From positions 1-62,211 of the forward strand of contig NZ_BIXY01000036.1 in the NCBI RefSeq assembly GCF_008326305.1: 62,211 nucleotides of DNA, given 5' to 3'. The position numbers were made by a program, and so were the translations under genes. The notes beneath the pieces were generated by a model. It saw nothing but the letters and a program-made list of their open reading frames with translations. It was not told the DNA's origin and did no database searches. This stretch comes from Dictyobacter arantiisoli. Its GTDB lineage: Bacteria; Chloroflexota; Ktedonobacteria; Ktedonobacterales; Ktedonobacteraceae. Of this stretch, positions 28,824-31,800 are shown piece by piece (the stretch's first letter is position 1; every line of letters starts with the position of its first letter).

Positions 28824-31800
28824 TTAAAAGTAGTAGGTGGCGCAGCCAACCTGCAAACCAGATCCAACATTAATAATCAAACCAATATTGCCCTTCTGGA
28901 CCTTATGCTGATCGTAGGCAGCCTGGAGCGTGTAGGCCAGGGAGGATGTAAAGAGATCATGTTCAGCCTGAACATCGATTACTTTGTCCCGGGATACTTC
29001 CAGAGCATTGCTCAACTGTGCGATAAAGCTGCTTGAGATCTGAGGTGGCAGGATCAGGTTGATCTGTGAGAGTGTGAGTCCTTCGTGTCTCAATGTTTCC
29101 TCCATGGTTGCTTGAATACAGCGGATGTAATGCTGCTCCAGCAAGGGATGGCTCTCAAACTTCAAGAGCGTTTTGCCGTTGCGTACCTCGGAATGGGAGC
29201 GTACATCATCCACATAGTCTGGGAAGCTTTTGAAGACGAATTGGCCGAAGCCGGTTGTGCCGTCCGCACTCTCATCAAGGATCAGGGCCGAGCCGGTCTC
29301 TTCGATGCCGACCAATTCCGTTGGAGCGAACTCGCGATTATTCTCGACCTCAGAGGCCACGATCAGGGCTGTTTGTGCGCGTCCGGCCTTAATCATACCA
29401 ATCGCTACCTGACAGGCATTGAGGGTGCCCAGACCACCATTTAAAACATCCAGCGCGAACGTCTTTTTATCCTCTTGCGTTTCAATATCGGCATTGATGT
29501 CGAGACGACCTTCGACCAGGGCCGCCACCGCAGGCTCGCAGAGGAACTCATCGCGATAGACACCAGCATAGATTAGCAGATCAATGGCGCTACGCTCGTG
29601 CGGATAAGTCGCCAGACAGGGATCAGCGGCGGCCTGGATCAGTTCCAGGGTCTTCTTCTCGACCCTGGCATCTGGCGCAATTGTGCCGATAGATGCGATC
29701 TGTACGCGTTGCTGCGCTGGCAGGCGAGAGACAAAGCTGGCGTCATGCTGGACCTTCGTTGGGGTATATTCCCCGGCCTCACGCCGACGAATGCGATCGG
29801 GTAGATCATCCAGGGTATAAATGGCGGTTCCAATGGTCGCGCCGGAGCCGGTGATGCCGAAGATGGCGTTGTCTCCGCTATTAATATGGCCCGCACGAAT
29901 ATTATCCATCAAGGCGATCATATGAGTCGTAGTGGCTGTATTGCCGCGCTCCTCAATATTATAGATCACGCTATCCGGTGTACAGAACTCTTCACCGAAG
30001 TACTTATTGATCTCGCGTGGCACATCTTTGATGGTGGTTTTGGAGGTCTGGTGCACAAGGATATGCTGGAAAGCTTCCTTCGGCCATTGCGTACGCTCCA
30101 TAATCATACCGGCATGTGAGACGGCCTGTTTGAGATTGACAGCTGAGACCGTCACAGCATCTGTATACATGATCGCTCCACCGTGTGGTTTGTCAGTCGC
30201 CTTACCGATACAGGCCTCGCTATAGCGTCCCAGTGTATACATCTCAAATTCGTGGAAGCCAACGGTATTATCAGGGGCTTGCTCCAGGATCAGCGCGGCA
30301 CCGGCATCGCCAACGGTGAGGCAGGCCAGACGCGAGTCCATAAAGCTCTCAATCTCCTTCTGGGCCGTTAATGAGAGATGGCTGATATATTCGCCGCTGA
30401 CCGCCATCCCGCGCCGGATCAAGCCGGTTTTCAGGAAGGCATCGACGATATAGGCAGCGGTAAACAGGCCCGTACAGGCATTTGAGACATCCAATACAAT
30501 CGCATTGTTAAAGCCGAAATGTTTCTTAATCTGTACTGAATGGTTGGGCTCAAAGGTAAACTGGAAGCCTGGCGCATCACAGCGTGAGATATTGCCACAG
30601 ACAATCAGGTCGATATCCTCTGGATTGTATTTTGAGTTCAGCAGGCAGTTGGCAACGGCCTGGATCGCAATATCGAGTGAGAACTCATCTTCACCGGCCA
30701 TGCGACGATTCTTGACTCCCGTCAGCTTTGCCAGTGGGAAGCGGATCGGTGTGGTACAGCCTGCCAGTACCTCTTCGCTGCTCACAATCTTCGGTGGAAG
30801 ATAAGTTCCCAGACTCTCAATCACTGTATTTGCTAGCTTCCCCTCTTTCTTCTCTATCACCTCGTCTTGGGTATGTACTGCAATCGGAGACTGGAAAGTT
30901 GGCTGGCTGACTGCTTCCTGGATGATGGGATTTGAGGATGCAGAGAGGGGGGGAGCTGCTTGTTTGTTATCCAGGGAGGTTGCCAGTTCGGCAATGGTTT
31001 GGAATTCAAAGAGCATTTCCAGGGCCATGGGAAGGCCAGCATCCGTGGTTTTGGAAACGAGGTCCAGGCTCTGGATTGAAGCTCCGCCAAGATCGAAGTA
31101 GTTATCATTGATGCCGATCTTTTCCAATCCCAGCACCTGCTCCCAGATTTCTGTCAGTTTCTTTTCGGTTGCGGTCCGGGGCGCGCTATAAGCGACCTCA
31201 AGTTCTGGGCGGTTGCTATCTGGCTCAGGAAGTGCTGTACGCTGAACTTTGCCGTTAGGAGCCAGTGGGAAGGCCTCCATAAAGATAAATGCGGCTGGCA
31301 CCATGTAGTCTGGCAACTGTTCCTTGAGGAAGCTACGCAGTTCCTCGATAGAGGGCTGGCTGGCAACTGATTCGGAGATTAGATAGGCCACCAGCCGTTT
31401 GTTGCCGGGTGTATCTTCGCGTGCCACAACCACACAGGCTTTGATCTCAGGATGCTGTGTGAGCGTAGCTTCAATCTCTCCTAACTCGATACGGAAGCCA
31501 CGAATCTTGACCTGAAAGTCGATGCGCCCCAGAAACTCGATGGCACCATCGGGCCGATAGCGTGCCAGATCGCCGGTCTTAAATAAGCGTGCTCCAGGCT
31601 GTCTGCTAAAAGGATCGTCGATAAAGCGTTCGGCAGTCAGTTCTGGACGCTGATAGTAGCCGCGTGCCAGTTGCACTCCTCCAATATGGAGTTCTCCTGG
31701 CTGATTGACCGGTACTGGCTGTAAGGCTGGGTTGAGGATGTAGATCTGGGTATTGGCAACCGGACGACCTAGTGGGACACTGGTTCCTTGCATGCCACGC

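Follow-up and report, generated by a model that had tools for sequence, protein, structure and literature searches.

A nonribosomal peptide synthetase of Dictyobacter arantiisoli that ends in a probable LstAB-type KASIII pair

The contig NZ_BIXY01000036.1 of the soil bacterium Dictyobacter arantiisoli (Ktedonobacteraceae, Chloroflexota; assembly GCF_008326305.1), whose whole 62,211 nucleotides form the window analysed here, encodes on its reverse strand a nonribosomal peptide synthetase (NRPS) in which the condensation (C), adenylation (A) and peptidyl carrier protein (PCP) domains are followed by two ketosynthase III (KASIII) domains, which we call KS1 and KS2. KS1 keeps a complete catalytic triad, KS2 has lost it, and the two halves branch with LstA-like and LstB-like proteins, respectively. 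The pair is very probably a condensing enzyme of the LstAB type, which carries out a non-decarboxylative Claisen condensation. On balance, we favor a mechanism in which the N-acyl-seryl chain leaves this terminus through C-C coupling with a second acyl thioester, so that release probably occurs by joining to another carbon chain rather than by cleavage.

Domain layout and recurrence of the KASIII pair

The features of the gene are listed below in window coordinates, with the evidence for each in brackets.

28824..34232, reverse strand: NRPS with the order C-A-PCP-KS1-KS2, an open reading frame (ORF) of 1802 amino acids
32766..34127, reverse strand: condensation domain, residues 36-489 (Pfam)
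31248..32702, reverse strand: adenylation domain, residues 511-995, with the serine-type code DVWHISLVDK (Pfam and code reading)
30978..31160, reverse strand: PCP, residues 1025-1085, with a GGAS motif (Pfam)
29811..30830, reverse strand: KS1, active KASIII and LstA orthologue, residues 1135-1474 (residues, alignment and tree)
30474-30476, 30051-30053 and 29940-29942, reverse strand: KS1 triad, Cys1253, His1394 and Asn1431, respectively (translation and alignment)
28827..29720, reverse strand: KS2, degenerate KASIII and LstB orthologue, residues 1505-1802 (alignment and tree)
29535-29537, reverse strand: Glu1566, retained in KS2 and equivalent to OleA Glu117 (alignment)

Pfam assigned Condensation (36-489), AMP-binding (511-860), AMP-binding_C (919-995) and PP-binding (1025-1085) to the protein, and Ser1052 of the GGAS motif is the presumed phosphopantetheine site. 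Beyond the PCP, Pfam matched ACP_syn_III (1247-1333) and two ACP_syn_III_C stretches, and the match to the NCBIfam KASIII models begins at residue 1135. These assignments confirm the two-domain terminus that an initial annotation of this DNA had proposed. The KS1 triad is present as it had stated, and the alignment places Gly1600, Pro1730 and Asp1759 of KS2 at the triad positions. The serine-loading module it described is also borne out, with the code reading DVWHISLVDK here and DVWH[IV]SLIDK in 11 other fused NRPSs. Its statement that there is no thioesterase holds for the NRPS polypeptide, but a stand-alone type II thioesterase gene 18 bp downstream had been overlooked. Likewise, the second domain was described as inactive, and while its triad is indeed gone, an active-site residue, Glu1566, is invariant in KS2.

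The architecture is not specific to this genome, as a search with a KS2 profile found the didomain in 12 of 47 genomes of the class. All 12 pairs from Ktedonobacteraceae are fused behind A-PCP domains with a serine-type code. Beyond this fused group, stand-alone didomains were found in one other member of the Chloroflexota (G065), directly after a FAAL-ACP-KS-ACP-C-A-PCP protein, and in two Bacteroidota, a Saprospiraceae bin (L035) and genome G422; the stand-alone state is listed for G065, G301 and G422. At a threshold of 1e-30, matches occurred in 2 of 296 Bacteroidota genomes and 2 of 294 Planctomycetota genomes. One Planctomycetota copy is cut by a contig edge, its contig (L036) beginning within the didomain ORF, and the residues preceding its KASIII part look like the end of a PCP, although this is only suggestive. 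The halves are separate adjacent genes in the Planctomycetota genome G791 and in Rhodococcus and Streptomyces plasmids. Altogether, the two-domain unit with the matching residue pattern was found in 15 further loci of three phyla, the exception being a Gln for Pro in G900, giving a set of 16 didomains with the present one included. The Cys, His and Asn of KS1 are invariant in these 16 homologues, and the triad of KS2 is lost in all of them. For close relatives the dN/dS ratio is ~0.08-0.09 in KS2 and 0.01-0.02 in KS1, more distant pairs probably being saturated, and KS2 is thus under purifying selection. Because the unit recurs in 15 other loci of three phyla, the pair is not a product of chance or an assembly artefact, and the recurrence together with the selection on KS2 rules out a pseudogene.

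Some of the more distant loci have distinctive surroundings. After the stand-alone didomain of the Saprospiraceae bin (L035:9986-17839) there are genes for a fatty acid hydroxylase, a desaturase, a GH3 protein and two short-chain dehydrogenases/reductases (SDRs), and the sole NCBIfam match of the GH3 protein, below the cut-off, is the lyso-ornithine lipid synthetase OlsH; this neighbourhood suggests an amino-lipid pathway. The LstA/LstB-like pairs on the Rhodococcus plasmids (L039, L043 and L044) have no adjacent OleC or OleD, and their neighbours are universal stress proteins, CBS-domain proteins and wax ester synthases.

Kinship of the two halves and the retained glutamate

A maximum-likelihood tree was built from 57 sequences comprising KS1, KS2, LstA-like, LstB-like, FabH-like and OleA proteins. 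All 16 KS1 domains form one clade with the LstA-like proteins (support 100/99), and all 16 KS2 domains form one with the LstB-like proteins (100/99). FabH-like proteins make up a separate clade and OleA lies outside both the KS1/LstA and the KS2/LstB clades. The references include two Streptomyces loci with the lipstatin operon order, in which two KAS genes are followed by those for an OleC-like fatty-acid ligase, an OleD-like SDR reductase, an NRPS and a formyltransferase. In LstA/LstB of Streptomyces toxytricini, as here, a Cys-His-Asn subunit is paired with a triad-less partner that keeps one essential Glu. The organisation differs, since LstA and LstB are encoded by two adjacent separate genes and form a heterodimer, whereas the halves here share one polypeptide with the NRPS, at whose end they stand. 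LstA/LstB condenses two acyl-CoAs, followed by LstC/LstD, and this genome has no LstC homologue at E<=1e-60. The terminus is therefore a variant of the LstA/LstB pair in one polypeptide instead of two genes.

The retained glutamate gives KS2 a candidate function. Glu1566 is kept in 16 of 16 KS2 domains, and a Glu is also present in 6 of 6 LstB-like rows of the alignment. In the LstB-like proteins of the lst-like loci it is residue 59, compared with Glu60 in LstB, with which Glu1566 agrees in position and context. A phmmer search aligned the 'CEPAVA' of KS2 with the 'LEPSTA' of OleA. The Glu-Pro motif occurs in every KS2, LstB-like row, KS1 and OleA, and it is absent from the FabH-like rows except the divergent F_L026, some rows being out of frame in the alignment. 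In OleA, Glu117 from one subunit works in the active site of the other (PMC7064751), and a review of LstAB reports that LstB E60A as well as LstA C128A and H271A abolish the activity (PMC12141560). By analogy, the glutamate would be a base used in trans, the signature of a non-decarboxylative Claisen condensation. The retention of the Glu, the loss of activity in the LstAB mutants and the purifying selection on KS2 are most simply read to mean that KS2 probably completes the KS1 active site in trans through Glu1566, with a presumed contact across the domain interface like that in OleA. A confident AlphaFold2 model of the didomain (pTM 0.92) has the thiolase fold, and its PDB matches include FabH, PqsD and OleA. 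OleA of Xanthomonas campestris shares this fold and the Glu117-Pro motif, but is a homodimer with two complete active sites, unlike the present pair, whose second half has no triad.

The initial annotation had likened the terminus to PqsC/PqsB. The logic of an active and a degenerate KASIII holds, but the closest relative found is LstA/LstB. In addition to the tree, in which the halves were placed against FabH, OleA and LstA/LstB-like proteins and PqsB/PqsC were not included, a search of the PDB with the KS2 profile matched OleA at 3.5e-12 and PqsC at 8.5e-5 and gave no match to PqsB, leaving KS2 unsupported as a PqsB orthologue. To our knowledge, PqsC/PqsB is not fused to an NRPS. A reaction of the PqsBC kind, in which Cys1253 would carry an acyl chain and a soluble amine or aminoketone would be the condensation partner, would fit the shared pair logic and the appearance of PqsC among the PDB matches of KS1 (7e-8). 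Given that the KS2 profile is much nearer OleA than PqsC and that the pair is orthologous to LstA/LstB, we regard such a reaction as highly improbable.

Another possibility is that the seryl chain undergoes a FabH-like decarboxylative extension with malonyl, the second half being merely structural. In its favor, the FabH triad is retained in KS1, whose top-scoring NCBIfam model is the FabH-type PRK09352 (119 bits; cut-off 249). However, FabH lies outside the LstA/LstB clades, the canonical FabH-like rows have no Glu-Pro, and the FabH model TIGR00747 scores 100.9 bits with KS1 and 56.2 bits with KS2 against a cut-off of 292.1. The NCBIfam cut-offs and the tree rule out membership of the FabH family, and the corresponding chemistry is very unlikely.

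Proposed release reaction and its alternatives

From the domains of the assembly line, FAAL would load a fatty acid and the polyketide synthase (PKS) module would extend and alpha-hydroxylate or reduce the chain, after which C-A-PCP, with its observed serine code, would make N-acyl-seryl-S-PCP. The N-acyl-seryl chain would then transfer to Cys1253. By analogy with OleA Glu117 and LstB Glu60, Glu1566 could reach across the domain interface and deprotonate the alpha-carbon of a second substrate, and the deprotonated acyl thioester would attack the Cys1253-bound chain to give a C-C bonded beta-keto product. More speculatively, the downstream thioesterase or spontaneous decarboxylation might free a lipid of the N-acyl-alpha-amino ketone type. 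Both the substrates and the product are deduced from the domains. Tentatively, the N-acyl-seryl thioester could be joined to a second fatty acyl thioester to yield N-acyl-alpha-amino ketones with a 3-ketoceramide skeleton, a PLP-independent assembly-line route, but we hold this particular outcome to be doubtful.

Several observations weigh against C-C coupling by an LstAB-type terminus. Characterised LstAB and OleA work on acyl-CoA, not on PCP-bound aminoacyl chains. The glutamate is not specific to KS2, as KS1 has Glu1228 at the matching position. The OleA branch is very long, and so the exact position of OleA in the tree is unsure. In G065 and the Saprospiraceae relatives the didomain has no NRPS fused to it. 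A search for OleC homologues at E<=1e-60 gave no match in this genome (G000), G272, G898, G900, G901, G065 or G301, so Ktedonobacteraceae lack the downstream logic of lst/ole; the only OleD homologue in this genome is distant, 32% identical and on another contig. With no OleC in Ktedonobacteraceae, a beta-keto acid or a decarboxylated ketone is a plausible end point.

The amino acid codes of the relatives bear on which part of the chain reacts. Read by hand, the NRPS neighbouring the didomain has a Gly-type code (DILQLGMIWK) in G422 and apparently an Ala-type code in G065, which rules out the serine hydroxyl as a family-wide nucleophile. As the code differs among relatives, a role depending on the side chain is unlikely as the general function, and it is more likely the aminoacyl thioester or the acyl chain that takes part in the reaction. 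The initial annotation had left C-C, C-O and C-N bond formation open at release; the kinship with LstAB favors C-C coupling, while a general C-O role of the serine hydroxyl is unsupported by these codes.

The didomain region of G422 (L079 and L081) encodes FAAL, a luciferase-like monooxygenase, a PKS, the Gly-type C-A-PCP, a desaturase, a P450 and a phosphopantetheinyl transferase, with an OleB/OleC/OleD-like set a few kilobases away from the NRPS. Glu-Pro is absent from all other KASIII genes found in this region, so the didomain is the only candidate seen for the OleA-type partner, and together with the OleBCD-like set this favors intermolecular coupling of two chains. As a counterpoint, the membership of the OleBCD-like set in the cluster is deduced from proximity, and one opposite-strand gene lies between. 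These G422 genes might make up a beta-lactone or olefin lipopeptide cluster not reported so far.

Among the alternatives for the release step, the strongest is an intramolecular Dieckmann reaction. Like the terminal KS of fungal TAS1, the KASIII pair would cyclise an N-acyl-aminoacyl thioester into a tetramic acid. In TAS1, which has the order C-A-PCP-KS, the KS uses a Cys-His-Asn triad for the final ring closure (PMC4640141). A KS-ACP module without a ketoreductase (KR), as in G065, would leave the beta-ketoamide that this reaction needs, and a varying amino acid among the relatives would be tolerable for a reaction of the backbone. However, the NRPS-fused relatives inspected have a KR in the PKS module, mostly with recognisable motifs, and the acyl chain should therefore be reduced. 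Moreover, the pair is orthologous to LstA/LstB, which couples intermolecularly, and the KS of TAS1 comes from another family (PMC4640141). Consistent with this, KS1 and KS2 match KASIII models and not type I KS models, excluding membership of the TAS1-type KS clade. We consider Dieckmann release unlikely, and about equally likely is a pure lipid-backbone role, in which the didomain builds a backbone from two fatty acyl thioesters, the NRPS adds serine separately and the fusion merely tethers the activities. LstAB and the NRPS are separate in lst operons (PMC12141560) and the didomain is a stand-alone protein in several relatives, which speaks for this role. Against it, all 12 Ktedonobacteraceae pairs follow the PCP directly within the same polypeptide, and the assembly line already owns FAAL and PKS functions for the acyl chain. 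The FabH-like and PqsBC-like reactions are less likely than either of these two.

Surrounding genes and significance

The NRPS is the last of three assembly-line genes, which stand in the order PKS1, PKS2, NRPS, and its gene overlaps that of PKS2 by 4 bp. The other genes of the operon are as follows.

38264..43579, reverse strand: PKS1, FAAL-ACP-KS-AT-N-terminal hotdog of a dehydratase (DH) (domain searches)
34229..38233, reverse strand: PKS2, luciferase-like monooxygenase (MupA/Atu3671 family)-C-terminal DH hotdog-KR-ACP (domain searches)
28071..28805, reverse strand: stand-alone type II thioesterase (PF00975), the next gene in the operon (Pfam)

As judged from its domains, PKS1 would serve for fatty-acid loading and one extension, and PKS2 would feed the NRPS. 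Luciferase-like monooxygenase domains within PKS modules are proposed alpha-hydroxylases (palmerolide, PMC8739492). An ORF sized like the thioesterase gene follows the didomain gene in most relatives, with a Pfam thioesterase in G065. The dehydratase is split over two proteins (34229..43579, reverse strand), its N-hotdog ending PKS1 and its C-hotdog standing behind the monooxygenase in PKS2. At least nine relatives show the same gene break, whereas G422 has an undivided DH and encodes the monooxygenase by a gene of its own. In G896 (L077) the part of the cluster that precedes the A domain, PKS2 and the NRPS N-terminus, seems to be fragmented into several ORFs, which may reflect sequencing error or decay. 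A class I/II aminotransferase gene (26847..28019, forward strand) converges on the operon, and D. kobayashii has an ORF of similar size at its place (L031:13279-14460); the remaining synteny with D. kobayashii (glycerol kinase, aquaporin) looks like normal genus-level gene order.

Known release routes of NRPSs are thioesterases, reductases, terminal condensation domains and Dieckmann-type cyclases. The initial annotation knew of no NRPS with a terminus of two KASIII domains, and we likewise found none in the open-access literature, subscription papers lying outside the search. The nearest described case is TAS1, the tenuazonic acid synthetase, where C-A-PCP likewise precedes a terminal KS that serves for product release (PMC4640141), but that enzyme is fungal and its single KS, which performs a Dieckmann cyclisation, is close to the KS domains of type I PKSs. 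RkD-type KASIII enzymes of tetronate biosynthesis, as cited in PMC4640141, are KS-like and form C-C and C-O bonds at chain release; they are stand-alone single enzymes, likened here by description and not by sequence. The NRPS/PKS section of a survey of Ktedonobacteria clusters, D. aurantiacus included, is silent on this terminus. The fusion of two KASIII domains by itself may already have been noted, as the LstAB review mentions naturally occurring fusion chimeras (PMC12141560). The condensing pair is of a known kind, and its attachment to the end of an NRPS is the part that appears to be new.

If the proposed mechanism is true, a built-in LstAB-type enzyme would constitute a mode of release in which an entire second chain is attached by a C-C bond. 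The conservation of a catalytically 'dead' KASIII half would then be explained as well, since this half would supply its partner with one residue. Conservation of the cassette in several Dictyobacter-related genomes makes the idea directly testable, and the chemistry could open a way to new lipid scaffolds, for instance amino ketones, beta-lactones or sphingolipid-like molecules.
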